Shown: positions 3,564 to 23,099 of the stretch, in pieces
How the letters are laid out: each line of letters begins with the position of its first letter
Position numbering within the stretch: the stretch's first letter is position 1
IMG/VR virus record: IMGVR_UViG_3300028607_001926
Location: 1 to 25,579 of that record
Source of the DNA: a virus
Strand: one strand, 5' to 3'
DNA: 25,579 nucleotides
Translations under genes and position numbers: made by a program
The notes under the pieces: model-generated
Databases searched by the model: none
Seen by the model: the letters and a program-made list of their open reading frames with translations, nothing else
Told to the model about the DNA's origin: nothing

Positions 3564-4343
3564 TTACTTCTTCTTTGGTGGCGGTGGCGGTGGTGGTGGC
3601 GCAGATTTTGCGCTACTACTAGCTTTTTGTAGTAAAGCTCCAGCCCCAGTAGGAGGTTTACGTGTGCCTTTACCAATAGTAGTAGGACCAGGTCCCGCAA
3701 CTCCTATTAAAGAGTCTGAAGCTAAAGGATTACTGGACTTTTTATATTCTTTCCATTGAGCATCTGGATTATTATCACCTCCTAAAGCTGTATTTGAGTC
3801 CTGCCGCCTAGCTTGTGGGACATTATCATCGGGGGGTTTGAGTGGGTCATTATGCTTATTAGTGTTATGAACTAAATAACCATCAGCATAATAATTATGA
3901 GTATTAGTCACCTCAAAATTATAAACGGTGTAAGGAGTGTCATCCAATTCAAGAGAGTGAATTGTATGTAACTCACCATCTAAATGCAGAATCTTATCTC
4001 CCAATTCTAATTCACCGGCTGTAACCCACTCCCCCTCTAAATAAAAAGGGTGATTAGTGGTAGTCTTAATTAGACCATTAATAATTAAACCGTCTTTATT
4101 TGCCTCATGAGCGTATACCTCATAAACAACCGCGGTTTCAGCCCTATCCGTTTTCAAATTCTTACTAACAACTTTATCACCCATCTTAACATCCTGGATA
4201 GACTTTATGCCGTCTCCCATAATAATTTCTGTGCCCCCTTGAAAACACCCAATATTATCATCACCTGGGGATACACCTGTATCTAAAGTAAATCCACTAC
4301 TTCCTGGTCCGGCTTTTCTACCCCTTCTCTTTTTTCTTGCCAT
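3564..4343 (-). CDS. Hint-domain (mini-intein-like) protein with proline/lysine tail, 259 aa
   Basis: Residues 33-160 form a Hint/intein module of about 128 aa. It starts with Cys33 (C-F-Q-G-G-T-E-I), has a block-B-like T-T-T-N-H-P-F at 94-100, and ends with V-Y-N-F-E-V (140-145), N-T-H-N-Y-Y and L-V-H-N (157-160) followed by Thr161. Cys at the N-end and His-Asn plus Thr at the C-end are the residues needed for protein splicing, and there is no room for a homing endonuclease. Splicing would join a 32-aa basic N-part to a ~99-aa C-part that carries D-A-Q-W-K-E-Y-K-K and ends in eight prolines plus K-K-K. A GGGAGA ribosome site precedes the ATG. Host-protein function is unknown; splicing itself is inferred. 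It could instead be a bacterial intein-like cleavage domain. Confidence 0.82.
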   Translation of the reverse strand: MARKKRRGRKAGPGSSGFTLDTGVSPGDDNIGCFQGGTEIIMGDGIKSIQDVKMGDKVVSKNLKTDRAETAVVYEVYAHEANKDGLIINGLIKTTTNHPFYLEGEWVTAGELELGDKILHLDGELHTIHSLELDDTPYTVYNFEVTNTHNYYADGYLVHNTNKHNDPLKPPDDNVPQARRQDSNTALGGDNNPDAQWKEYKKSSNPLASDSLIGVAGPGPTTIGKGTRKPPTGAGALLQKASSSAKSAPPPPPPPPKKK

Positions 4344-4590: not shown

Positions 4591-6366
4591 TTAATATTTG
4601 TCCTTAATAACCTCTGGATCTCCTTTAATTACTGGCTCATCCTTTTTAGGTTTAGGTTCTGTTTTAGGTTCACTATTTATGCCAGGTTTATTACTGGTCT
4701 TAGGCTTATCCCCGCTAAATTTATCAGGTTTTTCTTCTGGAAACAATTCTTTTTCACTTAATATATTAGCTAACTCCTGTCTCCAATTATAACCCGCTTT
4801 TGCTGCAAGAGTAGCAGCCGAAGCTATTCCAATCTCTTTATGGATTTTAAATACTTGAGCCTGAGCAGTAATATCTTCCCTAATAACTTCAGGAAAGTCT
4901 AAAGCAAAAGGAACCTCCTCAGTATCAACCGGCTTCATAGTCATTGTGGGTTTCAACATAGCCTCAGCCTTAGCCCTAATTACTTTAGACTCTAACCCCT
5001 CTAAAACCATTTCATTTATATTACCTAATACCTCCAATAAGCTTTCTTGAGTATAATCGGGGATTCTAACCCTTTTAGGTAAAGTCCCAGCTTCTACCGC
5101 AGCGTGAATAACTTTTCTATACATTTTCTCAAATGATTCTGACAAGTATTCCTGTTTACCCCTTATATATTGACTAAAGGGTGTATCAGCTTTCCTAATA
5201 GAAGCATAGACTTCTTCCCCAGATCTTTGATTTAAGATGTGGATTGGTAAACTAGTTCCAGCCCCTATTGTATATAATATAGCTAGACCGTCTTCTTTGG
5301 CATCATCAGCATTAATCTGAGCTTTCTCAATCCTATATTTTATATCCTCAGTTTCTAATAACATAACTCCACCTTTAGGAGCCCTTCTCTCTCTTTGAGT
5401 AGTTTCCGGTAATCTACCCCTTATTTCTTTAATCCAAACCACCTTAGCTCTTTCATGATTTAACCGGATCCGATCCATTAACCAATCTTCATAATATTTT
5501 AAATGTTTAATTACGGGCTGTAAAGGAACTCTGCCCCTTATCTCCCCATCAAGGCCAAACTTAATAAATTGAATTATTGGGGCTTGTTTAAGTTTATGTT
5601 TTGATCTAGCCTTTTTAAGCCCCTGTATAGAGGTTTCATATTGATACTCATAATCACAATCAGCTAACCAATGATCCGCTTTATATTGTTGATTTGTTCC
5701 CGCAAGAGAATAATCATATTGTTGGTGATAAGAAAAAATGTTTTCTATGTCTCCCGGGTGCGTTTCTATATCTACAATCTCATTAGGTTTTATTCTCCTA
5801 ATTTTTACTTCACCCGTTACTTCATTAATATAGTAGGCAATAAATAGTTCCCCTTGTAGATATAGCATTCTTATAAACTCTTTTTCGCGTTGGACCATTC
5901 TGTTATCAGCTCTAAACTTATTAAGAACTTTCATTACCTTAGGATTCTCACAATTAATCTTAAGACCCCCTCCCACCGTGTAGTGCACCCAATTTTCTAT
6001 TATGCTTCTACAATGAGGATCTACATGATATTTCTCTACTACTGCATCTTGCATCATCCATAATTGGTCTTGGGTTTGAGTATTTGACCACCAGGAAGAA
6101 GAATTATAATCTTTAGCATAAGTACCAATAAAAGCCTCATGGATTTGTTTCTCAGTAACAGGTTCATTTGGATCATGTTGTTCATATAAATAAGAATAAT
6201 CTTGCGGCTCATTATCTATTAGGGCCCCAGTGGGTTCACCTCCTCTTATGTGCCACCTCTTCTCTTCATTAGTAGCCATTTCAGCTGCCTTTGACGCAAT
6301 CTCTTCAGCTTTAGTCTTTCTTATAAATGATACCTTTTTAAATAAGTCTTTAATCTTCTTAAGCAT
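4591..6366 (-). CDS. Phage portal protein, ~591 aa
   Basis: Portal proteins form the dodecameric ring at one capsid vertex through which DNA is packaged and ejected and to which terminase and tail attach. The protein has portal-like features: a charged helical N-terminus, a W-W-S-N-T segment before a conserved helical region ending in V-G-G-G-L (around 135-139), a Y-L-Q-G-E-L-F-I strand/helix near 170, a long central alpha/beta wing, and a C-terminal helix plus Lys/Pro-rich tail. Size fits lambda-like portals. It directly follows the terminase nuclease gene. The frame extends to an ATG at 6378, but the ATG at 6366 is better placed behind GAGGA (6 bases), giving an 8-base overlap with the terminase stop. 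The Lys/Pro/Glu tail (last ~50 residues) is probably disordered. Confidence 0.85.
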   Translation of the reverse strand: MLKKIKDLFKKVSFIRKTKAEEIASKAAEMATNEEKRWHIRGGEPTGALIDNEPQDYSYLYEQHDPNEPVTEKQIHEAFIGTYAKDYNSSSWWSNTQTQDQLWMMQDAVVEKYHVDPHCRSIIENWVHYTVGGGLKINCENPKVMKVLNKFRADNRMVQREKEFIRMLYLQGELFIAYYINEVTGEVKIRRIKPNEIVDIETHPGDIENIFSYHQQYDYSLAGTNQQYKADHWLADCDYEYQYETSIQGLKKARSKHKLKQAPIIQFIKFGLDGEIRGRVPLQPVIKHLKYYEDWLMDRIRLNHERAKVVWIKEIRGRLPETTQRERRAPKGGVMLLETEDIKYRIEKAQINADDAKEDGLAILYTIGAGTSLPIHILNQRSGEEVYASIRKADTPFSQYIRGKQEYLSESFEKMYRKVIHAAVEAGTLPKRVRIPDYTQESLLEVLGNINEMVLEGLESKVIRAKAEAMLKPTMTMKPVDTEEVPFALDFPEVIREDITAQAQVFKIHKEIGIASAATLAAKAGYNWRQELANILSEKELFPEEKPDKFSGDKPKTSNKPGINSEPKTEPKPKKDEPVIKGDPEVIKDKY

Positions 6367-7297
6367 AATAATCCTCATCGTCTATTTTAAAATCATCGTA
6401 AAAATCATCCCCAGTACTAGCCTCTTGAGAGTCCTCTGTACCAGCTCCATACTCAAATTCATTATTCCCTAAATTATAAGTACTACCCGCTAAACTTTGT
6501 AATAGGTCAATAGTACCTCTGGGTTTATGATCCACTTTATTCCTTTTATAATCTATCTCTGCCCCTAAAGCCTCTTTAGCCCAATATTCATGATACGGTA
6601 GAGCCAACCTATCATCATATAATGCATCCTTTAAAGACTGCATAGCAGAGAGTGTTTGCCCGTCAGTAGATACCCGGCGTAAACCTGTTCCATCTTTAGC
6701 TCTTTTATCATTAATCAATTTAGTAGAGGTTCTATCAATAGAAAGCCTCCCAACCCTAAAACCCTGAGATCTTAAAATTTGAATGGAGTCTACAGATTGG
6801 AAACCATCAAAGGTAATAACTGAAAGGTAAAAACCCCTTCTCTGTAATTCATATATAATATCTCTAATAGAGCTGATTAATATTTCATCCCCTCTACCAG
6901 CTTTAATCCTACCTAAAAAATCAAATTTAACAAAGGGCAATCTTACATCCTCAACAACTGATCCTGTATTATATACTTTATTCACTTGTCTAGTAACAAA
7001 GTGAGGGGCATAGCACATAGAAATACCTACTGCATCTTTTTTAAGTCCAAGGTCAATATGCATATATCTTGAATAGAGATGAGAACCTCCAGGTATAAAA
7101 TCATCATCAAATACATTTTGCTTCTCATTAAAGGGGTTTTTATAAGCCTGTTTTTCTACTTCTAAAATCTTCCTTTTTAATTTAAAAAATGGTCTAGTAG
7201 ACTCAGTAGGAATGCAAGCTATATCTCTCATAAAATTTTCAGGGTCTCTAAGAAAGTTGGCTTTTAATTCCAGTGGTATTTTTATTGTTTGTCCCAT
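6359..7297 (-). CDS. Terminase large subunit, nuclease half (separate gene)
   Basis: This is the C-terminal RNase H-fold nuclease of a phage packaging terminase, which cuts concatemeric DNA. The start region (I-K-I-P-L-E-L-K, then a D-P-E-N-F-M-R-D segment) is the usual linker that follows the ATPase domain. The nuclease shows Y-M-H-I-D-L-G-L-K-K-D-A as first metal-binding aspartate, V-I-T-F-D-G-F as second, and a late R-G-T-I-D-L-L-Q as third. The tail is acidic (many Asp, Tyr). The ATPase half is encoded 2.6 kb upstream at 9875-10813, so the enzyme must work from two polypeptides. An open frame extends 18 codons further up to 7351, inside the radical SAM gene, but the ATG at 7297 fits the domain start, overlapping the radical SAM stop by 16 bases. 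Confidence 0.85.
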   Translation of the reverse strand: MGQTIKIPLELKANFLRDPENFMRDIACIPTESTRPFFKLKRKILEVEKQAYKNPFNEKQNVFDDDFIPGGSHLYSRYMHIDLGLKKDAVGISMCYAPHFVTRQVNKVYNTGSVVEDVRLPFVKFDFLGRIKAGRGDEILISSIRDIIYELQRRGFYLSVITFDGFQSVDSIQILRSQGFRVGRLSIDRTSTKLINDKRAKDGTGLRRVSTDGQTLSAMQSLKDALYDDRLALPYHEYWAKEALGAEIDYKRNKVDHKPRGTIDLLQSLAGSTYNLGNNEFEYGAGTEDSQEASTGDDFYDDFKIDDEDYYA

Positions 7298-8271
7298 TGT
7301 TCCCAATAATTGTGTGGTAAATAGTCTGCAAGTTGGTAGAGAGAGTAACAACCCTGAATCTTGGAAGCTTCTTGTAGAAATCCTAAGAACTTTGGAAACA
7401 ACTTATGGGGCTTTTGCCATACAGCGGCTTCTTTAAATCTTTCCTCATTCCAAAACCAATTATAAATAGGCCTTATAGTAGAATCACAACCTAATGAATT
7501 AGCTAGTTTACTAAATTCCACCAGCTCTCTAAAATTTACAGTTTGAACTGTAAAATCTAAAGCTAGTTGACCAAGACCTTGAGTAGATAGATATTTAATA
7601 TTGTTAATTAATTTATCCCAATTAGCAGTAGGCCTAGTAATAGCGAAGGTCTTTTTAGTAGCAGCATCTAAAGAAATTCTAATATCCACCACCTCTGGAT
7701 TAGCTTTTAAAGTTTTTAATGAATCCCACATTTTAGGAGTTAAATTTAATCCATTGGTACAAATAGCAATCTTTTCTTTTTTATCTATAATCTCTTGAGT
7801 TAAAGACCTTAAATAATTAATTCGGTGCCTATTATAAAAGGTTTCTCCGTGACATCCTATCAATAACCTATTTAATTGAGGATCATTTAAAAGTTTAGCT
7901 ACCCAATCCCAAGTTTCCTCCATCCGACCATATTCTTTATATTTGATAACTGTGTCTCTACAAGTAGGACATCTTAGCTGACAACCAAAACTGGTTCCAT
8001 CAGAACAGGAATTTGGATATTCATAATCATCACCGTTTTTAGAAGAGCCTAGTTTAACCTTTTCCCAAACTTCTTGAGGAGATATAAGTTTTAAATCATC
8101 AATCGATACTTTATATTTACCTTTGAAACAATCATCCCAACTTTCCCCAAAATTTAGGCTGGTATAATCAACACCGTTATTCTCAGTAGTAAAATTTAAA
8201 TGTCTTAAAATAGGTCCATTATCTATAGTAGTATTTTCACTATACTGCAATAGCTCTCCTATACCAACCAA
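7282..8271 (-). CDS. Radical SAM enzyme, ~320-329 aa
   Basis: A radical S-adenosylmethionine enzyme: the C-x3-C-x2-C cluster motif (C97, C101, C104 counted from the TTG at 8271) binds a 4Fe-4S cluster that cleaves SAM to a 5'-deoxyadenosyl radical. Other barrel markers are G-C-H-G-E-T-F (139-145, equivalent of the G-G-E motif), C-T-N-G (171-174) and R-I-S-L-D-A (198-203). There is no SPASM-type cysteine cluster at the C-terminus, unlike the two other radical SAM enzymes in the window. The first ~90 residues are an unrecognised extension. Translation may really begin at the TTG at 8250, which has AGGAG 5 bases upstream. It separates the two halves of terminase; substrate unknown. Confidence 0.85.
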   Translation of the reverse strand: MVGIGELLQYSENTTIDNGPILRHLNFTTENNGVDYTSLNFGESWDDCFKGKYKVSIDDLKLISPQEVWEKVKLGSSKNGDDYEYPNSCSDGTSFGCQLRCPTCRDTVIKYKEYGRMEETWDWVAKLLNDPQLNRLLIGCHGETFYNRHRINYLRSLTQEIIDKKEKIAICTNGLNLTPKMWDSLKTLKANPEVVDIRISLDAATKKTFAITRPTANWDKLINNIKYLSTQGLGQLALDFTVQTVNFRELVEFSKLANSLGCDSTIRPIYNWFWNEERFKEAAVWQKPHKLFPKFLGFLQEASKIQGCYSLYQLADYLPHNYWEQWDKQ

Positions 8272-8728
8272 AATAAAATTTAGCTAAATCGGGTTTCCTT
8301 ACCATTACCTCAGCATAATACTTAACTCTAAAAGCTTGAATCCGTGCAGGCTCTAAATTTGAGATAGCTTTTCTGGTCTTAGGACCTAACCCCCCATCTA
8401 CCTCTATAGCTTTTGACCAATTTAAATTTTTATTATTAGCGGCCTGTTGTAATATTTTAACCGCTCTACTCCTACCCATATTTACGCACATATCAAAATA
8501 AATAAAGCGTAGATCTTTAGGTACTGACTCAACTTTATTCTTTACCCAATAATCTTGGTAATAAATCTCGATAGCCATAAGTTTAGTTAACTTCTTAATA
8601 TTTATATCAGGATAAGACCTCTTACTTACACCATACTTAGTTTCTCCACCAGGGTCTTGTTTATCATGTACATAACCACCCTCGTGTTTTAAAACCTCTT
8701 CAATAATGTCTTCAAATTTAGTCAGCAT
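8240..8728 (-). CDS. Endolysin, GH108-type N-acetylmuramidase, 162 aa
   Basis: This peptidoglycan hydrolase would open the host wall at lysis. Near the N-terminus is L-K-H-E-G-G-Y (13-19), the GH108 signature, whose glutamate (E16) is the presumed catalytic acid, followed by D-P-G-G-E-T-K-Y-G-V-S (25-35). The second half (about residues 90-150; D-G-G-L-G-P-K-T, then F-R-V-K-Y-Y) matches the peptidoglycan-binding domain usually fused to GH108. Length is normal for the family. No signal peptide or membrane segment is seen, so a holin is needed for export; a candidate with a C-terminal membrane helix is at 18541. It overlaps both neighbours by a few bases, inside the block separating the terminase halves. 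Confidence 0.9.
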   Translation of the reverse strand: MLTKFEDIIEEVLKHEGGYVHDKQDPGGETKYGVSKRSYPDINIKKLTKLMAIEIYYQDYWVKNKVESVPKDLRFIYFDMCVNMGRSRAVKILQQAANNKNLNWSKAIEVDGGLGPKTRKAISNLEPARIQAFRVKYYAEVMVRKPDLAKFYFGWYRRAIAV

Positions 8729-9198
8729 CCTAACCTCTTAATTAATTCATATAAAGTTCTAGTATCTTCATAAGCTCTATGTATTGGATATACTCTAATA
8801 CCCATGTATTTAGCCACCGTCCTCATTTTATAATTTGGTAATTCATAATCTAATCCTTTGACGTATTTTAGATAATCCTGGTACTCTAAACAATCAAATA
8901 CTGGATCTTTAGCTACTAAAAAACTTTTATCAAACGAAACATTATAACCAATAATACGATGGCCTTTCATAAATTTAAATAAAATACGAGATATATCACT
9001 AAAAGTAGGACAGTTCATTAAGTCTTCATCTAGTAGACCTGTTAATTTTTTAATGATAGAAGGGAGGGGTTTTGATGGCCGTAATAATTGTTGGTATTGT
9101 TCTTGGAATTTTAAGCCCCTAAATTTTAAAGCAGAGACTTCTATTATATCTTCTTTCTTAGGGCTAAAGCCGGTAGTCTCTAAATCAAAAATAATCAT
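8722..9198 (-). CDS. DnaQ-like DEDDh 3'-5' exonuclease, 158 aa
   Basis: The four acidic metal-binding residues and the general-base histidine of the DEDDh family are all visible: D5 and E7 (F-D-L-E-T-T-G), D90 (Y-N-V-S-F-D) and H140 with D145 (H-R-A-Y-E-D). The protein therefore probably removes nucleotides from 3' ends of DNA or RNA. At 158 aa it is only the exonuclease domain, with no polymerase attached, like the small stand-alone exonucleases carried by many phages. The start ATG overlaps the end of the sulfotransferase gene by 14 bases and its stop overlaps the endolysin start, so all are co-translated. Replication proofreading, DNA recycling or RNA processing cannot be told apart from sequence. 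Confidence 0.88.
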   Translation of the reverse strand: MIIFDLETTGFSPKKEDIIEVSALKFRGLKFQEQYQQLLRPSKPLPSIIKKLTGLLDEDLMNCPTFSDISRILFKFMKGHRIIGYNVSFDKSFLVAKDPVFDCLEYQDYLKYVKGLDYELPNYKMRTVAKYMGIRVYPIHRAYEDTRTLYELIKRLGC

Positions 9199-9868
9199 GG
9201 GTAGCTAAAACTTTTGGAAATCTGTTTTCAGATAGAAGCTCATATTTGCTTTTTGAGATTAAATTCATGTGATATAGTGCTTGGACACAGTCAAAGTCTT
9301 TCTGTAGGTATTTAGCAAGGTTCTTATATCCAAGGGGTGATAAATATGTAGAATATTTTTTTGTAGGTTTTTTCTCATTAGGTACCCTCTTAGTGCCAAA
9401 CAACTCCTTCATGTCTTCAGATAAAGTTTCAGTAGTGATCACACCTAAAATATCCTCATTTTGGCATTCTTCCAAAAAGTTTCCGATATAAAAATTAATA
9501 TCTTCTTTTATGTGGTGTATATAATTTTCTCTCAAAGAGAGGTCGTTTTGTATTTCTCCATCCGCTTTATAAAGGCTTTCCGCTAAATTGTTAACGGTTT
9601 TATATTTTTCTAGTAATTCTTTTTCGCCTTCGAACCTGTACTCTTGATTTGACCTCCCCAGTCCATCACAAACAATTCTAGTTCTCCAATTAAACGCCGA
9701 AACAAATCGGTAGATAGGGTTTCTAATTGAGATAACGTATTTGTTGCCATTGATATATTTAATTTCCTGCAGGTGTAGTCTAGAAAACTCGAAGCCGTGT
9801 TCCTCTAAAGACTTCGAAATACTCCCACCGCCACATTTTCCAATATGAATAAATATGAATTTGGTCAT
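9185..9868 (-). CDS. Sulfotransferase family protein, 227 aa
   Basis: Predicted PAPS-dependent sulfotransferase. The 5'-phosphosulfate-binding loop is H-I-G-K-C-G-G-G-S-I-S-K (residues 8-19), right after an N-terminal beta-strand. The 3'-phosphate-binding motif follows as S-I-R-N-P-I-Y-R-F-V-S-A-F (47-59), with Arg and Ser in the expected places. Spacing between the two motifs is short but normal for bacterial and phage members. The C-terminal half is less conserved. Likely acceptors are carbohydrate hydroxyls, given the many glycosylation genes nearby; this is inference. It begins 7 bases after the terminase ATPase stop and shows no clear ribosome site. Confidence 0.8.
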   Translation of the reverse strand: MTKFIFIHIGKCGGGSISKSLEEHGFEFSRLHLQEIKYINGNKYVISIRNPIYRFVSAFNWRTRIVCDGLGRSNQEYRFEGEKELLEKYKTVNNLAESLYKADGEIQNDLSLRENYIHHIKEDINFYIGNFLEECQNEDILGVITTETLSEDMKELFGTKRVPNEKKPTKKYSTYLSPLGYKNLAKYLQKDFDCVQALYHMNLISKSKYELLSENRFPKVLATHDYF

Positions 9869-9874
9869 ATAGGT

Positions 9875-10813
9875 TCATTCATTAATAATCTCTAAGGTGT
9901 CTATATCTACTTCAAAGCATTCCTCCATATTAAAGAATTTAGAACCTTTAGCGTCCCATAGGTTTCTCATTCTCCAAAACATGTTTAATTTCTCTACCCC
10001 TATAGCCTTAGCCTCTTTAACCTTTCGCTCAAGAAAGGAGTCGGGATAACGGGGAGAGCTTATCAATACTATTATACCTGGTATCTTACCCCTCTTCATA
10101 AAACGCGAGGTCATACGATTCATTACTGCATTATACATCTCCTCACCAGCATCATAAATATCATCTTCAGACTTATTTGAATCTTCAGTAACCTCTAAGT
10201 AGTTAGCCTCATCAATTACAGCCGAGTATACATTATAACCCAAAGCTGATAGGGCGGAACTAGTACCAGCATATACACAAGTGTGATTTCTATCAATACG
10301 GATTTCCCGAGCGTATCGGGGATTAGCAGGGAAGTAATCTTTATTAAAACCAGATTGGAATCTTTCCCAACAATAAGTAAATACCACCCTTCTAGACTGG
10401 GTCTCAGTTCTACTAAGAAGCATAATAGCGATCATTGAATTATCAGTTAATCCAAAATGTTTTTGAGGATTTTGGTGCATACTCATTTCATACCACAACA
10501 GCCATAGAATAACAGAAGATTTAAATGACTTCCCAGCACCGATAGCTTCTAAAAACACGGCTAAGTTTACCGTTCGCTTTTCTCTTTCCGCCCACAAGTC
10601 CACAAGGTCTTGATATACAGAATCATATAGATTACCCTCTAAACCTAAAAAGTAATCATCCATTAGCAGGGTATCTAGCGGGACATCCTTAAATTGTTCT
10701 ATAGTCTGTTTGTTCCAATCAAATAAAGTTCCACCCTCTTGATTATCATAATCATTTATCCATCTTTGAGCCTCATCTGCTAAACTATCTTTATAGCTTT
10801 TCTTGTCGCTCAT
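9875..10813 (-). CDS. Terminase large subunit, ATPase half (separate gene)
   Basis: This gene encodes the DNA-translocating ATPase motor of the packaging terminase. Visible motifs are a Walker A, L-E-A-I-G-A-G-K-S (88-96), a Walker B with catalytic glutamate, Y-S-A-V-I-D-E-A-N (196-204; E202), and a coupling segment V-L-I-S-S-P-R-Y (around 248-255). The protein ends at residue 312, just past the ATPase core, where intact large subunits continue through a linker into the nuclease. That linker and nuclease are found at 6359-7297, beyond four unrelated genes. The start overlaps the small-subunit candidate by 4 bases (ATGA). No intein or intron signature is seen at the break. Confidence 0.88.
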   Translation of the reverse strand: MSDKKSYKDSLADEAQRWINDYDNQEGGTLFDWNKQTIEQFKDVPLDTLLMDDYFLGLEGNLYDSVYQDLVDLWAEREKRTVNLAVFLEAIGAGKSFKSSVILWLLWYEMSMHQNPQKHFGLTDNSMIAIMLLSRTETQSRRVVFTYCWERFQSGFNKDYFPANPRYAREIRIDRNHTCVYAGTSSALSALGYNVYSAVIDEANYLEVTEDSNKSEDDIYDAGEEMYNAVMNRMTSRFMKRGKIPGIIVLISSPRYPDSFLERKVKEAKAIGVEKLNMFWRMRNLWDAKGSKFFNMEECFEVDIDTLEIINE

Positions 10814-11562
10814 TTCTTATCTTCCTCAATAACCTCTGCTACTATCTCTTCTGAGGCAGGCTGAAAATCAAATTCACCGCCTTTAATTCTACCCTGTGTT
10901 TTTAAAGGTACAATTACCTCATCTAATATAGACTGCATAATCCTTTTACCAACATTCTTAGCAGCGTTAGCTAAAATAATTTTAAATATCTGGTCCACGA
11001 AAGTTTTTACAGTTGCTGTATCTAAAGATACTTCTTTTTGGAGTTTAGGCCTTAGTTCTTTAGCTTTCAAAATCTTATCATTAATTTTAAGCATTAAGTC
11101 TAAATCTTGATTAGTTAAATAACCTTCATCCGGATTCTCATGATCTCTACGCCTACTCATAACATAGCTCATTATAGCATATAACCCTTTAATATCATCA
11201 TCTACCGAGGACAGATGTTCTTCTTGTACTATCTCAGCATTTTCTAAATATTCTAATAGATTAGCTGGTACACCAGCTTGGCGATTAAGTTGTAACCATA
11301 AGCTGGTATTATTAGGATTAGTTAATTGTCTGTCGTGATAAGAGCACTGAGCATAGCCCGGATGTTGAGTACCGTCTCCAGCTGCTTTCAAACAAAGATA
11401 GCCCGCTGGTTGATTATTTCTTTGAGTGCCACAAATTTTTCTAGTTCTTGTACCCTTCTTATCTAAAAGGTAAACTTCATAAGCGCTTACCTTATCAACT
11501 GAAGGCTTAGATTGAGTGGTTGTAAGGCTTTTCTCCGTATCTTTAACGGTAGGGTTCTCCAT
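10810..11562 (-). CDS. Probable terminase small subunit / zinc-finger packaging protein, 250 aa
   Basis: Located directly before the terminase ATPase, where the DNA-recognition small subunit usually lies. Residues 44-76 form a Cys/His cluster, I-C-G-T-Q then L-C-L-K-A then G-T-Q-H-P-G-Y-A-Q-C-S-Y-H (C44, C57, C73, H76). This resembles the G-T-x-H-P-G-x-x-x-C-x-x-H zinc motif found at the N-terminus of many phage small-terminase-like proteins. The rest is mainly helical and charged, suited to oligomerisation, with an acidic tail. An AAGGAG ribosome site 7 bases before the ATG marks a strongly translated gene. The assignment rests on position plus the zinc motif. Confidence 0.68.
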   Translation of the reverse strand: MENPTVKDTEKSLTTTQSKPSVDKVSAYEVYLLDKKGTRTRKICGTQRNNQPAGYLCLKAAGDGTQHPGYAQCSYHDRQLTNPNNTSLWLQLNRQAGVPANLLEYLENAEIVQEEHLSSVDDDIKGLYAIMSYVMSRRRDHENPDEGYLTNQDLDLMLKINDKILKAKELRPKLQKEVSLDTATVKTFVDQIFKIILANAAKNVGKRIMQSILDEVIVPLKTQGRIKGGEFDFQPASEEIVAEVIEEDKK

Positions 11563-12943: not shown

Positions 12944-13705
12944 TTATTCACCTTTTAGTTGAAATAGTAAATCATACAGTTTATCTAATTTCAACATACT
13001 TTTCCCATCACACAATGCTTTTTCTGGGTTATCATGGACCTCTATAAATAGGCCGTCTATACCTACTGCTACAGCCGCTTTAGCTAAATATGGGGTGTAC
13101 TCAGGGTAAGCACCACTACTGCCCCCAGCACAACCGATTTGAGTCGTATGAGATGCATCAAAGACTACTGGTACGAATTTTCTCATCTTCGGCAAGTTAA
13201 GCATATCTACTATCAAATTATTATAACCAAATATGTTTCCTCTTTCAACTGCGTATACCTCTTTACCCCCACTAGATCTAATTTTATCTATTACAGCTTC
13301 CATAGCCTCAGCACTCATAAATTGACCTTTCTTAACACAAATAGGTAAACCAGTTTTTGCCGCTGCTACAAGCATATCAGTTTGTCTACATAAAAATGCA
13401 GGAACTTGTAAGTAATCAACCGCCCCCTTAAGTTTATCAGCTTGATCCGGTAAATGAAAATCAGTTATAATCTTTACCCCAGCAAACTCTTTAATAGCTT
13501 TAAATATCACAAGGGACTTATCTAAACCAAAGCCTCTATAATTTTTCAATTTAGTCCTATTAGCTTTATCCCAAGAAGCTTTAAATATTAAGTCTATATC
13601 CAATGAGTCACATATCTTTTTAATCTCCTTAGCCATAAAAATAGCATGTGACTGAGATTCTAAAACACAAGGACCGGCTATAAGGAAAAAATTAGGTGAA
13701 GAGGG
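12944..13705 (-). CDS. kdsA: 3-deoxy-D-manno-octulosonate-8-phosphate synthase (KdsA)
   Basis: Condenses phosphoenolpyruvate with D-arabinose 5-phosphate to KDO-8-phosphate, the precursor of the KDO sugar of lipopolysaccharide and capsules. Motifs are clear: F-K-A-S-W-D-K-A-N-R-T, V-P-A-F-L-C-R-Q-T-D, V-K-K-G-Q-F, E-R-G-N-I-F-G-Y-N-N and V-F-D-A-S-H. The first ATG is at 13636, but conserved coding continues upstream in the same frame (F-F-L-I-A-G-P-C-V-L-E-S), including the Gly-Pro-Cys whose cysteine binds metal in the metal-dependent class. That part has no ATG, GTG, TTG or CTG and overlaps the end of the transaldolase gene one frame away. The end given (13705) marks a possible +1 shift point at CCCC; the true 5' end is unresolved. 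Other metal ligands (His of F-D-A-S-H, Glu of I-E-V-H) are present. Confidence 0.88.
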   Translation of the reverse strand, partial: PSSPNFFLIAGPCVLESQSHAIFMAKEIKKICDSLDIDLIFKASWDKANRTKLKNYRGFGLDKSLVIFKAIKEFAGVKIITDFHLPDQADKLKGAVDYLQVPAFLCRQTDMLVAAAKTGLPICVKKGQFMSAEAMEAVIDKIRSSGGKEVYAVERGNIFGYNNLIVDMLNLPKMRKFVPVVFDASHTTQIGCAGGSSGAYPEYTPYLAKAAVAVGIDGLFIEVHDNPEKALCDGKSMLKLDKLYDLLFQLKGE

Positions 13706-14273
13706 GTATACCGTCCTCTGTTAAAGGGTGATGCATCATCTTCTGTAAAACTGAATAAGGTATAGTTATAGCATCGGCTCCAACAACCGCTGCCTCTTCC
13801 ACATGTCTGGGGTGTCTAATACTAGCAGCCATTAATTCGGTATCTTTTATTACACATTTCATTGTAGATAATAATTCTTGAGAATTTACTCCCATATCAT
13901 CTGATCTCCCCATTAATACACAAATATAATGGGCTCCAGCCGCAGAAGCTAATAAAGCTTGATTAGGAGAATAAACTAAATGCATATTAACTTTAGTACC
14001 CTTTCTCCTAAAAGATTCTATAACTTTTAAACCTTCCATAGAAAAAGGAACTTTAGCAACAACCCCCTCTGGAAAATCCTCATACCCCTCCATACTCTCT
14101 ATATGTAATTCCTTATTCGGGCAAATATCATGGAAAAGCTTCATAAACTCTTCAGTGTTTTTTACCCCTTGTTTTTTAAAGAAAGTTGGATTGGTTGTAA
14201 CTCCATAAATCCAATCTAAGTCTTTAACCTCTTTAATCTCCCCCAAATCTCCGGTGTCTAAAAATATCTTCAT
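13692..14273 (-). CDS. talC: Transaldolase / fructose-6-phosphate aldolase family (TalC-like), 193 aa
   Basis: A small transaldolase-family TIM barrel. The Schiff-base lysine is K74 (V-V-A-K-V-P-F-S), the substrate-binding N-Q-A-L-L-A-S-A-A-G-A follows at 104-114, and the M-G-R-S-D-D motif at 121-126. E59 (L-H-I-E-S) sits where true transaldolases have Glu and fructose-6-phosphate aldolase has Gln, favouring transaldolase chemistry. Phage talC genes are known to redirect host pentose-phosphate flux. Here it lies between kdsB-like and kdsA genes, so a role in supplying sugar phosphate for KDO is attractive but unproven. At 193 aa it is about 20 residues shorter than usual, ending just before the normal C-terminal helix, where the kdsA coding region begins in another frame. 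Start overlaps upstream gene by 4 bases. Confidence 0.85.
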   Translation of the reverse strand: MKIFLDTGDLGEIKEVKDLDWIYGVTTNPTFFKKQGVKNTEEFMKLFHDICPNKELHIESMEGYEDFPEGVVAKVPFSMEGLKVIESFRRKGTKVNMHLVYSPNQALLASAAGAHYICVLMGRSDDMGVNSQELLSTMKCVIKDTELMAASIRHPRHVEEAAVVGADAITIPYSVLQKMMHHPLTEDGIPLFT

Positions 14274-14986
14274 CTCATCCTTTCCTCTAATTTTTTAATT
14301 TGGGTAGGAACATCTATCCCAAAGCCTACATGTTTAATTTTAAAAGCCTTTATCTTAAATCCTAATTCTAGTAGCCTAAGTTGTTCCAGGCCTTCAAATC
14401 TATCTAAGCAGGTTTCAGTGTTATGTTTTGAAAACCCCTCTAAAAACTGTCTAGAGAAAAATAAAACCCCCACATTTTTTTTAAGGGTGGAGGAGTTTAT
14501 CTCTCCATCCTTCCCCAAAGGAATAACCGCTCTAGAGATATAAATTAGGTAATCATTAACATCTAAAACTATTTTAGCAGATAATGGAGAGAGGGCATCA
14601 GATAAGTCATAAAAGTCACAATACAACGTTGCACAATCCCCTTTAAACATCTTAGACACTCTATTCACCTCTTCTGGGTCTATTGAGGGTTCATCTATTG
14701 GAAGAGTAATAAAAATCTCCCCTTTTAAAAGTTTATATATTTCTAAAACTCTATCAGTGGCACTGTTACATGACTCAGAGCTTTCAATAAATTCATAGTT
14801 TTCGGATTTAATAATAGATCTAACTTTTAAAAAATCTGTATGGGGAGAGGTTAAAATTACATTATTACTGATCTTATTAGCTAGGCTTAAAGCATGTGTT
14901 AGTAAAGCTTTACTTTTAAAAAGAGATATAGCCTTATTGGGAAATCTACTACTTTCTAACCTAAAAGGTACTATCACCGTTAGCAT
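14270..14986 (-). CDS. kdsB: CMP-KDO synthetase-like cytidylyltransferase (KdsB-like), 238 aa
   Basis: Activates a 3-deoxy-octulosonate-type sugar with CTP, giving CMP-sugar for transfer. The N-terminal nucleotide-binding loop is R-L-E-S-S-R-F-P-N-K (9-18), followed by the S-A-T-D-R segment near 74-78, L-P-I-D-E-P-S-I (where KdsB has Q-G-D-E-P), a K-I-V-L-D strand, S-R-A-V-I-P and the E-G-L-E-Q-L-R-L-L-E stretch near the C-terminus, with G-I-D-V-P-T at the end. These follow KdsB in order and spacing, though it is more divergent than cellular copies. A GGGAG ribosome site is 7 bases before the ATG. It is directly upstream of talC and kdsA, forming a KDO mini-pathway; no KDO-8-P phosphatase or arabinose-5-P isomerase is in the window, so the host may supply these. 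Confidence 0.8.
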   Translation of the reverse strand: MLTVIVPFRLESSRFPNKAISLFKSKALLTHALSLANKISNNVILTSPHTDFLKVRSIIKSENYEFIESSESCNSATDRVLEIYKLLKGEIFITLPIDEPSIDPEEVNRVSKMFKGDCATLYCDFYDLSDALSPLSAKIVLDVNDYLIYISRAVIPLGKDGEINSSTLKKNVGVLFFSRQFLEGFSKHNTETCLDRFEGLEQLRLLELGFKIKAFKIKHVGFGIDVPTQIKKLEERMR

Positions 14987-15794: not shown

Positions 15795-16411
15795 TTAGCT
15801 ATACAAAATCCAGTATCCTCAGTAGTTAATTCTATAAATTTAGTTTGGTGTTGAGCAAAAAACTCTACGGACCCAAAATTTTTGGATATTAGATTTAAAA
15901 GCTCCTTCTTAGGTAATTCACTGACATGATAAGGATTAGTTATATATGGTTTACCATTTCTGTATCTCAACATAGGAGAAGAAATAATTGCAGTACCATC
16001 CTTCTTTAAAAGGGTATTAATCTTTTTAAGCCATGTCTCCTGCTCAAGGATATGTTCAAGAGTTTCCAAAGATACGATTAAATCAAAACTATTTTCTTCA
16101 AGATCTAGGTCAAATAGGTCACTGCAAATAAAAGAGGTATTTGATTTTAAATAGGTCCGGGAAGCAAACTCTATAGTATTAGGATGCATATCAACCCCTA
16201 TAACAGCTTTAGCTTTATTAGCCAAAATATTAGACCCATAACCCGAGCCACAAGCACAATCTAATACTATACTTGAAGAGGTCAAAAATTTAGAGGCAAA
16301 TGTATACCTAGCAATATGCCGTTCAGTATTCTCCTTATCATAGTCATTCTGCTCTATGCCCAACAAGTCATTATGACTCAAATAAAGTCTGTCCTCTTTT
16401 ATCTGCCCCAT
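15776..16411 (-). CDS. SAM-dependent methyltransferase (Methyltransf_11-like), 211 aa
   Basis: A class I methyltransferase with motif I V-L-D-C-A-C-G-S-G-Y-G (49-59), acidic strand-2 end I-G-V-D-M-H, motif for adenine binding C-S-D-L-F-D-L-D, and F-D-L-I-V-S-L-E-T-L-E-H as motif IV and post-motif helix. The L-E-H-I-L segment is typical of UbiE/small-molecule methyltransferases often found in sugar clusters. It has no metal-ligand D-x-D like the other methyltransferase at 11581. Its ATG overlaps the upstream gene's stop by one base. Acceptor is probably a sugar or lipid-linked glycan, judged only from neighbours. Confidence 0.83.
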   Translation of the reverse strand: MGQIKEDRLYLSHNDLLGIEQNDYDKENTERHIARYTFASKFLTSSSIVLDCACGSGYGSNILANKAKAVIGVDMHPNTIEFASRTYLKSNTSFICSDLFDLDLEENSFDLIVSLETLEHILEQETWLKKINTLLKKDGTAIISSPMLRYRNGKPYITNPYHVSELPKKELLNLISKNFGSVEFFAQHQTKFIELTTEDTGFCIAKCRKTE

Positions 16412-17523
16412 TAATAAAACTCCTTAAATTCCTCAAATCCATAACAGGGGTCTTCTGAAGATTCTACCTTCATAACTGTGTTATCCAGGTCCCCACTACT
16501 TACTAACTTGCTAAATCCCCATATAACCCGATATGTTACTTCTTTAGTAAGTTCAAATAATATCTTTCTTAATTCATTAGGCTCTTTCTTAAAAAGTCTA
16601 CCTAAATATTCATCCACCACCTCTTCTTTCTTTTCAAGATCATTTTCTACATTTTCAAGAGAGAATAATTTTTCATCTCTAGTCCAAGTATCAACATATT
16701 GCTCAGCTACAATATAATGATCAGATAAAACGTCATAAAAAATAGCAGGAGTAAGGGAGTGAAAATATTTACAACCCCAATGAACCCCATAAACTGAAGC
16801 AAAGCCCGGATAATCTGAAGTGGCGTATTCAAATTTACTCATTACCTCCCGATGGTATTCAATAAAGGTTGGTCCGTGAGCTCCTAAAGTTACAATATCA
16901 AAGCCAAAAGTCTCTTTAATGTACAACCCTTGATAGTCCGCATCACCCATCATCAAACAAACAGTAAAGGGGTGGAATTTATCAGGTAAGCCTTTTAATC
17001 CTCCAAGATACTCCCGCATATTAGAGGGGAAGTTACGCCAAGTAGAATGATTGGGAAAAACTATAGTACCTTTCCTTTCAGGTATATTCTCCTGTTCTGG
17101 TAAGTATAAACCAGGGTGTCCCAATTTATGGAGAAAGGCGGGAGCTATTAATCCTCTCTCTATTATCCATTCATTTTCTCGTTTTCCATTAATCCACCAA
17201 TGGGGTAAAGGAGATAATTGAAAATCATTATATCCTGCTTCCGGTAAATAAGAATGAGTCCAAGAAATAGGCAAAGGAAGACTATCAGGCCAACCACAAT
17301 ATTTTCGAACAACATGGTTATAACCATAGATTCTAATACTATTGTTAAATTCTGGGTAAGTAGTATAGTTGGGGGGTGTATTATTTCTAGCCTCTATTCC
17401 CAACTTTTCAACATCTCCTTTAATATATTGCACAATGCTATTTTGCACACGATTCTTATAATCGTATGGAAGGTCTCCTGTAACCAGCTGCTTACCCTTA
17501 CCCTTTAATATTGTTTCTGGCAT
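16411..17523 (-). CDS. GT-B-like putative glycosyltransferase, paralogue B, 370 aa
   Basis: One of three related proteins in the window. Shared blocks with paralogue A (17505-18512) are Y-G-Y-N-H-V-V-R-K-Y-C-G-W (66-78), T-H-S (89-91), G-H-P-G-L-Y-L-P (135-142), R-K-G-T-I-V-F-P-N-H-S (150-160), P-D-K-F-H-P-F-T-V-C-L (180-190) and a Y-A-T-S-D-Y-P-G stretch before V-H-W-G-C-K-Y-F (233-254). The order of a substrate-binding N-half and an H-P motif followed by a Ser/Gly-rich loop recalls GT-B enzymes that use CMP-KDO or CMP-sialic acid. The match is by eye and no named family is asserted. The N-terminus is about 40 residues longer than in A. ATG overlaps the end of A by 19 bases; the adjacent pair may be a tandem duplication. 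Confidence 0.6.
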   Translation of the reverse strand: MPETILKGKGKQLVTGDLPYDYKNRVQNSIVQYIKGDVEKLGIEARNNTPPNYTTYPEFNNSIRIYGYNHVVRKYCGWPDSLPLPISWTHSYLPEAGYNDFQLSPLPHWWINGKRENEWIIERGLIAPAFLHKLGHPGLYLPEQENIPERKGTIVFPNHSTWRNFPSNMREYLGGLKGLPDKFHPFTVCLMMGDADYQGLYIKETFGFDIVTLGAHGPTFIEYHREVMSKFEYATSDYPGFASVYGVHWGCKYFHSLTPAIFYDVLSDHYIVAEQYVDTWTRDEKLFSLENVENDLEKKEEVVDEYLGRLFKKEPNELRKILFELTKEVTYRVIWGFSKLVSSGDLDNTVMKVESSEDPCYGFEEFKEFY

Positions 17524-18512
17524 ATTCTTTTAATTGTATCAGTTTCAACCTTTATACCTTCTGCATACCCACACCAACCCAACAAGATATCTTTACCTTC
17601 TTTACCATCTTTACGGTCGCATAGCTCGGATAAAAATCTATATACCCAATCTTCACATAGTAGAGATAGAAAATTTTTGAGCTCCTCTGGTGAGCGTTTA
17701 TACTTTCTTCCCAAATGGGCATCTACCAAATCACGAGATCTCCTTAAAACATCCTCTACTTGTTCTTGGGTAAAGACCTCTTCAAGGCACATTTGATTAT
17801 ATCCTGTATTTCCCTGTTTAGGAGCAAACACCATGGCTTTATTCTTACTATAAAAAAACTTACAACCCCAATGTAGAGCAAACCATTGAGGGGCTCCCCA
17901 ATAATTGGATAGGGCATATTCAAATTTATACATTAGCCGTTGATGACTAGCATAAAAAAGAGGACCACCATGGCCAATAGTAAGAAAATTAATACCTAAT
18001 GATTGAAGGAGTTCTAATTGGACTTGATGTATTTCGGGGAAGTGACCTATGGGACCGGGATGAAGACACACAGTAATGGGGTGGAACTTTTCAGGTAAAG
18101 CTGCTAATTCCTTAAAAAAGTCCATCCAACCTGTAACTAAATGTCCGTGTATTGAATGGTCAGGAAAGGCTATTGTACCCTTTCTTTCCCCTAAAGACTC
18201 TTCGGGTATTTCTGGTAGATATAATATAGGATGGCCTAGTGTACAAAGTACCTGTGGAACGAAATCCCTAATTGTTAACCCTTTAAAATCTCTGTTACCG
18301 ATAATCCAATAATATCTTAAGGGACTTAAGTAAAGATCCACAATAGGAGGTCCCTGACCATAAGAATGTTGCATAGTGATAGGGAGGGGGGTATTATCGT
18401 CCCAACCGCAGTATTGTCTAATCACATGATTAGCTCCATAAACAGTGGTTCTCGGCGCTAACTCAAAATACTTTGGTCCCTCATTACTGGGAATGTTCAT
18501 CTCAATAGACAA
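17505..18512 (-). CDS. GT-B-like putative glycosyltransferase, paralogue A, 335 aa
   Basis: Shortest of the three paralogues. Blocks are Y-G-A-N-H-V-I-R-Q-Y-C-G-W (25-37), M-Q-H-S (47-50), G-H-P-I-L-Y-L-P (93-100), R-K-G-T-I-A-F-P-D-H-S (110-120), P-E-K-F-H-P-I-T-V-C-L-H-P (140-152) and A-L-S-N-Y-W-G-A-P then L-H-W-G-C-K-F-F-Y (200-221). In known GT-B transferases with CMP-sugar donors, an H-P motif and a Ser/Thr-rich loop bind the nucleotide; the same spacing suggests such a role here. Start is TTG at 18512, backed by AAGGAG 7 bases upstream; the ATG at 18500 lacks a well-spaced site. No signal peptide or membrane helix, so cytoplasmic. Function is inferred. Confidence 0.6.
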   Translation of the reverse strand: MSIEMNIPSNEGPKYFELAPRTTVYGANHVIRQYCGWDDNTPLPITMQHSYGQGPPIVDLYLSPLRYYWIIGNRDFKGLTIRDFVPQVLCTLGHPILYLPEIPEESLGERKGTIAFPDHSIHGHLVTGWMDFFKELAALPEKFHPITVCLHPGPIGHFPEIHQVQLELLQSLGINFLTIGHGGPLFYASHQRLMYKFEYALSNYWGAPQWFALHWGCKFFYSKNKAMVFAPKQGNTGYNQMCLEEVFTQEQVEDVLRRSRDLVDAHLGRKYKRSPEELKNFLSLLCEDWVYRFLSELCDRKDGKEGKDILLGWCGYAEGIKVETDTIKRICQKQY

Positions 18513-20119: not shown

Positions 20120-21239
20120 GTATGTATTGTCCTATTTTAGGCATGTCACATTCTTCAGTACATTTGATACAGGGAGATACATTGATGTGGTCTTTTCTAA
20201 ACTTATCATATAGATCCCCATTCCAAATATCATATAAACTGTCTTTACTAACATCACCTAAAAATACCTCATTATTATAATCTTCCATACACATGTGGAT
20301 CTCTCCATCAGATTTAACTGTTAGAGAATTCCAAGGATGTTTACAAAATTCGGACCAATGTATAGAGTCAGTTCCATAGAAGTCTTGGCCCTGTTCTGGG
20401 ACCTCTCTACCTCTTTGTTCTAAATACTCTTTTAAAGTTTTATCTTTTCTATACCATTGCTGATCTTCACTCTTAAGATAGATATAGGTGTCTGTACCTT
20501 CAAAGACCTCCCTCAATCTTCTATACTCTTCTTGTTGTAGCTCATTATGCCCAATATCAATCATAGTAATTATAATAGTAGTATCATAACCCTTCTTTTT
20601 CTTTATATCTAATATCTCTAGAGTTTTATGATAAGCCTCTGTGAAATTAGCAGCCTCTCCCCTGACATCCTTGAATTTTTTATCATCGGTACTTTCAAAG
20701 GAATATTTCATGTAGGTTAATCCTACAGCCATTATGTCGTCTGTAGCTTTTACATTTATGTTTGCTGGCGTGCAACTGAAGTATGACTCAAACCCTGCCT
20801 GCGAAAGTTTTTTGACGGCCGCGCCGATATTCTTATCAAGTAAAGGGTCTCCGTACCCATGCAGCTGGATAACTCTTGGTATTATGTGCAAAAAGAAATG
20901 ATTCTCACTAGGCGGATCGTCAGGACCTATATTATATTTCTTTATACAAAACTTTTCCCACTCTGCCCATAGCTCTTTACTATGAGGTTTAATTTGAGGG
21001 ATAATCTTATCATAAAACTCGAGATCTAAAAAAGTTATGTCTCTTGTCATCCTAGAAGTCCTGGGGCACATCTTACATCTCATATTACAGGCATTAGTAG
21101 TTTCTATATTATAAATAACAGGGTTTTTTGACCGGATGGATTCAAACTGATCATATATAGCTTGTTTGTCAGTAAGCTCTCCTGATTGAATCATCTTTAA
21201 AATAGGTTCTGACTTCATATAAAAATCGATATCTAACAT
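20112..21239 (-). CDS. Radical SAM/SPASM enzyme, 375 aa
   Basis: The radical SAM cluster motif is at C51, C55, C58 (A-C-N-M-R-C-K-M-C-P-R). H-G-Y-G-D-P-L-L is the SAM-binding segment, and a Y-M-K-Y-S-F-E-S strand and M-I-D-I-G-H follow in barrel order. The C-terminus has a SPASM cluster: F-C-K-H-P-W-N-S, M-C-M-E-D-Y, L-G-D-V with D-I-W-N-G-D, then C-I-K-C-T-E-E-C. It is about 100 residues longer than the enzyme at 14961-15794, mainly through an insert after the cluster motif (W-A-E-W-E-K-F region) and a charged segment before SPASM. Genes either side are putative glycosyltransferases and all overlap by 7-8 bases. Radical-based modification of a sugar or protein is likely; the substrate cannot be read from sequence. 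Confidence 0.86.
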   Translation of the reverse strand: MLDIDFYMKSEPILKMIQSGELTDKQAIYDQFESIRSKNPVIYNIETTNACNMRCKMCPRTSRMTRDITFLDLEFYDKIIPQIKPHSKELWAEWEKFCIKKYNIGPDDPPSENHFFLHIIPRVIQLHGYGDPLLDKNIGAAVKKLSQAGFESYFSCTPANINVKATDDIMAVGLTYMKYSFESTDDKKFKDVRGEAANFTEAYHKTLEILDIKKKKGYDTTIIITMIDIGHNELQQEEYRRLREVFEGTDTYIYLKSEDQQWYRKDKTLKEYLEQRGREVPEQGQDFYGTDSIHWSEFCKHPWNSLTVKSDGEIHMCMEDYNNEVFLGDVSKDSLYDIWNGDLYDKFRKDHINVSPCIKCTEECDMPKIGQYIHA

Positions 21240-22333
21240 AATATAACTTCCTCTTCTATAAGTTTTAATATTTCTTCTGGAGTACGTTTACAATCTATCC
21301 CCATACACCAATTTATAAGAGATTTAGCCTTTTTGTCTTTATGGGACCATTCTACATTATCTAAATGGAAAAGCTCCTTTCCTTTATGATATATGGGTCT
21401 ACCCCACGGGTTAAGCTCATCAGGAGGGATATGTTCCATTGTTCCTAAATGAGTTGCGACTTTACCTTTGTACCACCACTTAGGATTTAAAGGAGAATCC
21501 CAAGTTAGATCCCCCGGATGAAAAAACTTGCAGCCAGCATATAAAGCATAAGCTTTGCTAGAGTTTAGATAATGATCTACACAAGCATATTCATATTGAG
21601 ATAATAGGGTTAATTGTCTTTCCTGGAAATAGCTCTCCTGATTGAATCCTACACAAACAAGGTTAAAACCCCTACTCTCTAATTCACTGATATAGGATTT
21701 AACTCTTTCCTCCGGTCCTCGTATGGGCAGGGCATATTCTATATCATCAAAACGAAGACATATATCAATGGGGTGGAATTTATCCGGTAAGTTCTCCAAA
21801 ACTTTTAATAGGGGTTCATAATCTCTCAATGCTATTATTCTCTTACCATCAGATTCACTATAAGGCCTCAATAGGTTTTCAGGCAGAACTAGAGTACCTT
21901 TACGTTCACCCTTGAAAGAATTTTCAGCATATATTAAGGGATTACCTAATGCAAAAGTTTTAAAGGGATGATCTGGGTAATATGACAGGTAAGATTCTAA
22001 CACTGCTTTACTCCATATCCAGAAAAGCGGTTTAAACTTTGGAATTTTCTTAGCCCATTTATGATTAGATAGAAAAGTATCTTTGTTAGGGGGATTAATA
22101 GCTCCACTCCGTAGGCCTTGGGCAAAGGAGTGTTGCATAATAAAGGGGTAGAGTTTATCTTGCGGCCAATCTATGTAACGAGAAATAGTTTGGGCCATAC
22201 CCCAGTAATTATCCACCTGGTACTCTTTAGAATCACCTTGATGTATATGGGGAATATACTCCGTCATAACCCTTTCTAAAATATTAGGAGAACGGAGTTC
22301 AGTAAAAATATTATGCTTATTTACGTCTTCCAT
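21233..22333 (-). CDS. GT-B-like putative glycosyltransferase, paralogue C, 366 aa
   Basis: The most divergent of the three related proteins. It keeps Y-W-G-M-A-Q-T-I-S-R-Y-I-D-W (43-56), I-M-Q-H-S (65-69), G-N-P-L-I-Y (130-135), E-R-K-G-T-L-V-L-P (143-151), P-D-K-F-H-P-I-D-I-C-L (183-193) and Y-A-C-V-D-H then Y-A-G-C-K-F-F-H (249-272). The H-S of the central F-P-x-H-S block is replaced by P-E-N, and the late Ser/Gly loop is less conserved, so donor or acceptor may differ from A and B. It is separated from them by four genes, suggesting an older duplication. Start ATG follows the SpsF-like stop by 1 base. Function inferred as for A. Confidence 0.58.
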   Translation of the reverse strand: MEDVNKHNIFTELRSPNILERVMTEYIPHIHQGDSKEYQVDNYWGMAQTISRYIDWPQDKLYPFIMQHSFAQGLRSGAINPPNKDTFLSNHKWAKKIPKFKPLFWIWSKAVLESYLSYYPDHPFKTFALGNPLIYAENSFKGERKGTLVLPENLLRPYSESDGKRIIALRDYEPLLKVLENLPDKFHPIDICLRFDDIEYALPIRGPEERVKSYISELESRGFNLVCVGFNQESYFQERQLTLLSQYEYACVDHYLNSSKAYALYAGCKFFHPGDLTWDSPLNPKWWYKGKVATHLGTMEHIPPDELNPWGRPIYHKGKELFHLDNVEWSHKDKKAKSLINWCMGIDCKRTPEEILKLIEEEVILC

Positions 22334-22334
22334 A

Positions 22335-23099
22335 TTATAAATCTTTTAATTGTAATTGTGAATGTATTCGTTGGTTTTCCAAAAATTCCCTTTGCCTAAA
22401 AAAATTAATATCTCTAATATAAGGGTTCTCAGCTATTACTTCCACTATCCTCTTAAGTGGGACATAGTCAAATCCAATCAAATTAAGTATGCTCATAAAA
22501 AAATCAAGATCCTCTGGGTAATCTAAGGTCATTCTAGTATCATCTCTATAATATAATGGGCCTGCCTCTAACTCTGCTATTGAAAAAAGGCCTGTCTCTA
22601 AAAAGTATGGCCACATCATTTCTGTATCATCTGTGTCTTTTATCTTACAAACTTTTTTTAGTGCCGTGTTTAGCATTCCGTAGGTAAATGCCCCTGTGAT
22701 TATATAGGGGGCATGTATAAAATCATACGGCCTTACGCTCCACTGGTAAAACGCCAAATCTATCAACTCTGGCTCACAAAATAGGTCATCCCCATCCACA
22801 GTTATTATAAGGCCTGCATTAAATTTAATAGCTGCCTCATTCCATCTCTCTAACTTATCATTAGTGGGACCTTGATAAAACTTGATAGAATGCTTTTTAG
22901 CAATATCAACTAAAACCATATCATCAGGCTCATTAGTTGTACACAATACTATTTGGTCTGCTCTTTTAGATAACTTAACTCTCATTATAATATATTCAAT
23001 TATAGTAAGGCCTTGATCATTTAATAAAAGCGTGGCCTTATTGGGCAATCTAGTGGAGGCAGTTCTAACGGTTATAAAGATTGACTTAAGATTACCCAT
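22335..23099 (-). CDS. SpsF-like cytidylyl/nucleotidyltransferase, 254 aa
   Basis: Nucleotide-sugar synthase of the CTP_transf_3/SpsF type. The N-terminal loop R-T-A-S-T-R-L-P-N-K (12-21) binds the nucleotide. Other markers are C-T-T-N-E-P-D-D, P-T-N-D-K-L-E-R-W, I-T-V-D-G-D-D (metal site) and the late R-M-T-L-D-Y-P-E-D-L-D-F-F, characteristic of SpsF and related CMP-sugar synthases. It differs clearly from the KdsB-like protein at 14270-14986, so the phage may activate two different sugars. It overlaps the aminotransferase gene by 8 bases, a pairing common in pathways for amino sugars and sialic-acid-like sugars. The sugar it uses is not evident. Confidence 0.82.
   Translation of the reverse strand: MGNLKSIFITVRTASTRLPNKATLLLNDQGLTIIEYIIMRVKLSKRADQIVLCTTNEPDDMVLVDIAKKHSIKFYQGPTNDKLERWNEAAIKFNAGLIITVDGDDLFCEPELIDLAFYQWSVRPYDFIHAPYIITGAFTYGMLNTALKKVCKIKDTDDTEMMWPYFLETGLFSIAELEAGPLYYRDDTRMTLDYPEDLDFFMSILNLIGFDYVPLKRIVEVIAENPYIRDINFFRQREFLENQRIHSQLQLKDL

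Follow-up and report, generated by a model that had tools for sequence, protein, structure and literature searches.

The window analysed here is one linear virus entry of the IMG/VR database (IMGVR_UViG_3300028607_001926, 25,579 bases). On its minus strand the large terminase (TerL) is encoded by two separate genes, one for the ATPase and one for the nuclease, an arrangement that it shares with many other uncultured tailed viruses. The block is transcribed in the following order:

10810..11562, minus strand: conserved gene, candidate small terminase by position only, preceding the ATPase throughout the clade
9875..10813, minus strand: TerL ATPase, 312 amino acids, ATG start
9185..9868, minus strand: sulfotransferase-like gene (phrog_3347, E 4.8e-5; weak PF03567)
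8722..9198, minus strand: DEDDh exonuclease (PF00929, E 1.5e-21)
8240..8728, minus strand: GH108 endolysin (PF05838, E 7.9e-24)
7282..8271, minus strand: radical SAM gene (PF04055, E 2.6e-10)
6359..7297, minus strand: TerL nuclease, putatively RNase H-like, 312 amino acids, ATG at 7297
4591..6378, minus strand: portal protein (phrog_10963, E 2.8e-14), located 3' of the nuclease across the clade

The ATPase and the nuclease are 2,577 bases apart, with four genes in between. The genes in this slot overlap their neighbours by 7-32 bases, and the 3' end of the radical SAM gene shares 16 bases with the start of the nuclease, for which there is an alternative in-frame TTG at 7351. Our reading of the open reading frames (ORFs) thus agrees with the first-pass annotation, which had described four intervening genes overlapping by a few bases. 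No Pfam or PHROG match gave the conserved gene a name. The gene order is consistent with a packaging role of the two halves together with a small terminase and the portal.

The observation of two separate terminase genes holds. The ATPase carries a Walker A motif (GAGKS, residues 92-96, 10526-10540), a Walker B motif (Asp201/Glu202, 10208-10213, the Glu being catalytic) and a coupling motif (SSP, residues 252-254, 10052-10060), i.e. the three motifs that had been ascribed to the 312-residue protein, and all of them are invariant in the aligned ATPase homologues. The nuclease is an ORF of its own, as had been claimed, and its three aspartates, Asp82 (7052-7054), Asp164 (6806-6808) and Asp264 (6506-6508), are invariant among 15 divergent homologues. 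In other words, the ATPase motifs and the acidic nuclease residues of a TerL are both present, and they are carried by two polypeptides instead of one.

Neither half of the window had a Pfam or PHROG match at E 0.01, so the identification was made via homology to annotated terminases. In tblastn searches each half matched, with about 30% identity, one and the same continuous TerL gene of cultured phages of Vibrio, Aeromonas and Gordonia; for example, the two halves match 61323-62108 and 62205-62933 of PP534163. The ATPase is 31-32% identical to the N-terminal half of the Vibrio phage TerL (E down to 9e-31), and the nuclease aligns to the C-terminal half of the intact protein. The TerL proteins of Vibrio siphophage vB_VneS_J26 (PP534163), Aeromonas phage HJ05 and Gordonia phage Chelms have homologous domains with the same order and motifs, but they are single polypeptides with a linker and have no slot genes within. 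Among the deeply branching split relatives (loci are designated by L numbers), L106 matches the TerL family phrog_2, and nucleases of deep members match the TerL families phrog_9 and phrog_2699. Profile searches against PDB sequences gave nothing usable. A Foldseek search, in which the query was a poor model of the nuclease, ranked the nucleases of T4 gp17, P74-26 and G20c first (E 0.016-0.042); this ranking is a hint that weakly supports an RNase H fold.

Alignment with intact TerL sequences places the break at the interdomain linker, where the first-pass annotation had put it, and no conserved residue is lost. In J26 the break is flanked by the last ATPase strand, FNVFIGD....RIL, and by the start of the nuclease, IPVEFKGEF, which follows the conserved pattern 'IP.e....F'. 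The split ATPases stop just past the equivalent of this last strand and the nucleases open just ahead of the conserved start, most of their ORFs having a start codon (ATG, GTG or TTG) that precedes the conserved core by 2-6 residues; longer N-termini are found in L037, L045, L093, L106, L113 and L124. In L108 and L111 the stop codon of the ATPase and the start codon of the nuclease overlap as TAATG, i.e. there is no insert and still there are two genes.

Relatives were collected by scans of IMG/VR, and the split or intact state was taken from a hidden Markov model survey of all loci. The survey counted 44 loci with the split and 34 with an intact gene, all distinct in nuclease sequence; close relatives and fragments are among them. 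In a tree of 62 members and 609 columns, from which near-copies had been removed, the split (32) and intact (30) members lie on opposite sides of one branch with a support of 100/100. This branch is present in 200/200 bootstrap trees, and a smaller tree set gave the same single separation. As there is one state change on the tree, a single origin of the split is well supported by the sequences. The arrangement, whose recurrence in related contigs had been proposed as a check, was seen in 44 distinct contigs, and no contiguous terminase occurs inside the split clade. The two genes overlap in L108 and L111 and lie up to about 2.5 kb apart in other members, so what the clade has conserved is their separateness and not the insert. 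The earlier description of the halves as lying far apart in the operon is thus correct for the window (2.6 kb) but does not apply as an essential trait, since the genes are adjacent in L108 and L111.

Among the matches listed from 50,697 records of cultured phages the identity to either half is at most about 35%, and those inspected all carry an intact TerL. One scan of genome contigs returned no relative and a second returned two distant ones (27-30% identity); with relatives as distant as these we do not name a host.

Purifying selection on the two halves is strong. Across five pairs, the ratio of nonsynonymous to synonymous substitution rates (dN/dS) was 0.026-0.064 in the ATPase, 0.047-0.088 in the nuclease and higher, 0.10-0.32, in the exonuclease. 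In single-gene trees calculated with FastTree the distances of the ATPase, nuclease and portal correlate at 0.83-0.84 (ATPase-nuclease r 0.83), and the ATPase and nuclease trees have eight supported splits in common and zero conflicting. The correlations of the exonuclease tree are lower (0.57-0.72, with some conflicts), which is partly owing to its short length. Selection and congruence are consistent with two halves that have remained functional as a pair; much of the tree congruence could also come simply from the vertical inheritance of linked genes as one block.

The content of the slot is variable. Its most common resident is the DEDDh exonuclease, found between the halves in 26 of the 35 split loci listed. 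The other nine (L045, L051-L053, L056, L085, L106, L113 and L124) fall outside the main exonuclease-bearing group of the tree, in which the deepest branches of the split clade lack resolution. We considered the exonuclease as a necessary part of the motor and rejected this on account of these nine loci and the lower tree agreement. A GH108 endolysin beside the exonuclease is a trait of the window's clade; its place is taken by an unrelated, amidase-like protein in L037, L040 and L093 (Amidase_2 confirmed in L040) and by a DUF5675 protein in L014. The slot of L046 holds a LAGLIDADG protein and that of L052 a protein with a weak metallophosphoesterase match. The radical SAM gene is variable cargo, and so is the sulfotransferase-like gene, which is not in the slot of other relatives. 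By eye, the slot proteins of L113 (7486-7926) and L124 (2551-2934) resemble GroES-like co-chaperonins; Pfam gave no match for that of L113. The likely order of events is that the split came first and the inserts later.

The first-pass annotation had stated that there is neither space for an intron core nor a pair of intein ends at the break, and both statements stand. The genes overlap across the slot, and no Rfam intron was found at gathering thresholds in the window and 11 loci (12 sources); intron types as yet undescribed may lie at the break. Neither the C-terminus of the ATPase nor the N-terminus of the nuclease carries an additional domain. Inteins do occur within the ATPases of the clade, in the Walker A region at two positions (L016, L044, L046 and L050; L037, L100 and L113) and at Walker B (L050 and L111), and none sits at the boundary between ATPase and nuclease. 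The ATPase inteins of L016, L037, L044, L046, L050, L100, L111 and L113 interrupt the gene family that is also interrupted in Microcystis phage Mic1, which has two inteins in TerL (PMC7156551); in Mic1 the in-frame inteins restore one protein, whereas the break described here is without an intein.

L050 (3335-6076 and 6595-8007) has three inteins, at Walker A and Walker B of the ATPase and near Asp164 of the nuclease. In L038 (3145-4425 and 4383-4907) and L108 (2-2293 and 2265-2813) a Walker B intein is apparently split over two overlapping ORFs, so the ATPase is itself divided at Walker B and TerL extends across three genes there.

Other terminases (PF17289, PF03354, PF04466) were absent from 11 records, these being models that also miss the present family, and in 19 records the profiles built from the family detected each half once only. 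As the records searched reach 80 or 105 kb in length, an intact second terminase, which the first-pass annotation had considered as a counter-argument, was absent from the searched records up to 105 kb.

We consider it probable that TerL was split anciently and that its separately translated halves act as a two-subunit motor. TerL would have been divided once, long ago, at the interdomain linker, into two separately translated genes. The ring that translocates DNA at the portal would consist of the ATPase polypeptide, and the nuclease would dock non-covalently on the ATPase and cut the concatemer as packaging starts and ends; the gap left by the split would have become a late-operon slot, taken up by the DEDDh exonuclease, by a gene for lysis and by cargo that varies. 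We infer the joint action of the two polypeptides as one motor from their conservation, and the proposal implies that they would bind each other and that a tether-free nuclease would be coupled to ATP hydrolysis. The sequence evidence supports the first-pass reading of a packaging motor assembled from two polypeptides. Several points weigh against this proposal. In T4, the best-studied phage, gp17 has both functions in one polypeptide; its separated domains retain ATPase and nuclease activity and lose translocation, and the hinge is reported to be essential (PMC9958956), so an untethered motor would need an interface that is invisible to sequence. AlphaFold models from nine-row alignments were poor (pLDDT, the predicted local distance difference test score, 38 and 48). 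The nucleases of L046, L100 and L103 lack a start codon close to the conserved core, and the nuclease frame is broken in the record of L011 (33,934 bases), where it falls into two pieces with a stop in one of them, and in that of L100 (18,362 bases). Missing starts and broken frames alike may be sequencing errors; the frame breaks of L011 and L100 may be either errors or pseudogenes. Finally, the records are fragments, and a second terminase could conceivably lie elsewhere.

The two-gene arrangement could also mean that the ATPase translocates alone and that the nuclease is a separate enzyme, recruited in a phi29-like or P74-26-like manner for the initiation and termination cuts. We regard this as rather unlikely; it differs from the two-subunit motor in mechanism only, and as the two-gene reading is common to both, our confidences in them overlap. 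The terminase of phi29, gp16, likewise packages DNA with an ATPase whose chain has no nuclease activity, this having been lost from its C-terminal domain (PMC11476376); it does, however, keep a vestigial nuclease fold there, while in the window the nuclease is a separate gene. T4 nuclease mutants package pre-cut linear DNA (PMC9958956), and two genes would permit unequal amounts of the two proteins. On the other hand the halves are co-inherited without supported conflict and the nuclease gene adjoins the portal gene, which fits a stable association too. The sequences as such fit both mechanisms alike. That the halves are rejoined to a normal TerL by RNA or protein trans-splicing appears very improbable. 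Such rejoining is known in mirusviruses, most of which outside two orders trans-splice a TerL whose ATPase and nuclease parts are likewise far apart in the genome, with the splice site near Walker B and in viruses of eukaryotes (PMC12768974), and several relatives have inteins in the ATPase, the Walker B intein of L038 and L108 being spread over two ORFs. Against it, the ATPases end a few residues past the last conserved position and the nucleases usually start 2-6 residues before the first, which leaves no room for intein halves; the Rfam search was empty; the one-base overlap in L108 and L111 leaves no space for intron halves; and the conserved start and stop codons would be superfluous. A misassembled or decaying terminase in the window contig has almost no likelihood. 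The window and its relatives are metagenome contigs and the nuclease frame is interrupted in two of the relatives, but L015, an independent assembly from another metagenome, has the same gene order with shared proteins 99.4-100% identical, the arrangement recurs in the 44 distinct contigs of one clade, the catalytic residues are invariant and dN/dS is below 0.1 for both halves; misassembly, which had been named as a possible refutation, was thus not borne out. A second terminase, an intron, an intein at the break and misassembly were all considered, and were rejected on the searches and on recurrence.

Annotation of phage P2 names ATPase and endonuclease subunits of the terminase, and in some actinobacteriophage annotation ATPase-domain and nuclease-domain terminase genes are listed apart. 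Split TerL genes as such may therefore have precedent, and the novelty lies in a deep, conserved lineage of single origin. None of the open-licence papers searched describes a TerL made of two proteins; where they describe a split, introns, inteins or trans-splicing bring the parts back together. The Jug phages likewise have terL in fragments, but these are attributed to group I introns (PMC12363816), whereas here no Rfam intron was found and the start and stop codons are conserved.

Several other genes of the window and its relatives were observed. A lysine- and proline-rich short protein of 259 amino acids at 3564-4343 (minus strand) contains a Hint/intein domain (CFQGG...HN|T), and Hint-bearing ORFs lie 5' of the conserved gene in L005, L008, L009, L011 and L024. 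Three paralogues of 335-370 amino acids, 26-38% identical (16411-17523, 17505-18512 and 21233-22333, minus strand), have no Pfam match and are set among glycan-related genes. The regions 12944-14986 and 22335-24321 (minus strand) encode DAHP/KDO8P synthase-like and transaldolase-like proteins, two cytidylyltransferases and a DegT aminotransferase. These sugar-synthesis genes suggest modification of a surface glycan or lipopolysaccharide and a Gram-negative host.

As the halves of the window match no Pfam or PHROG family at E 0.01, terminase annotation and terminase-based classification will miss or truncate this clade. How TerL converts ATP hydrolysis to DNA movement is disputed, and the part played by the nuclease domain is central to the dispute. 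A lineage in which the domains have long been separate is a natural experiment on the role of the hinge and the nuclease, and two small subunits can be mixed at chosen ratios. We suggest tentatively, with slightly less than even confidence, that the whole lineage packages with a nuclease that is never tethered and that translocation needs no hinge-coupled nuclease domain. If true, this would speak against a general role for the T4 mechanism, in which DNA is moved by the linked C-terminal domain, and in favour of translocation driven by the ATPase, with the nuclease recruited for cutting.
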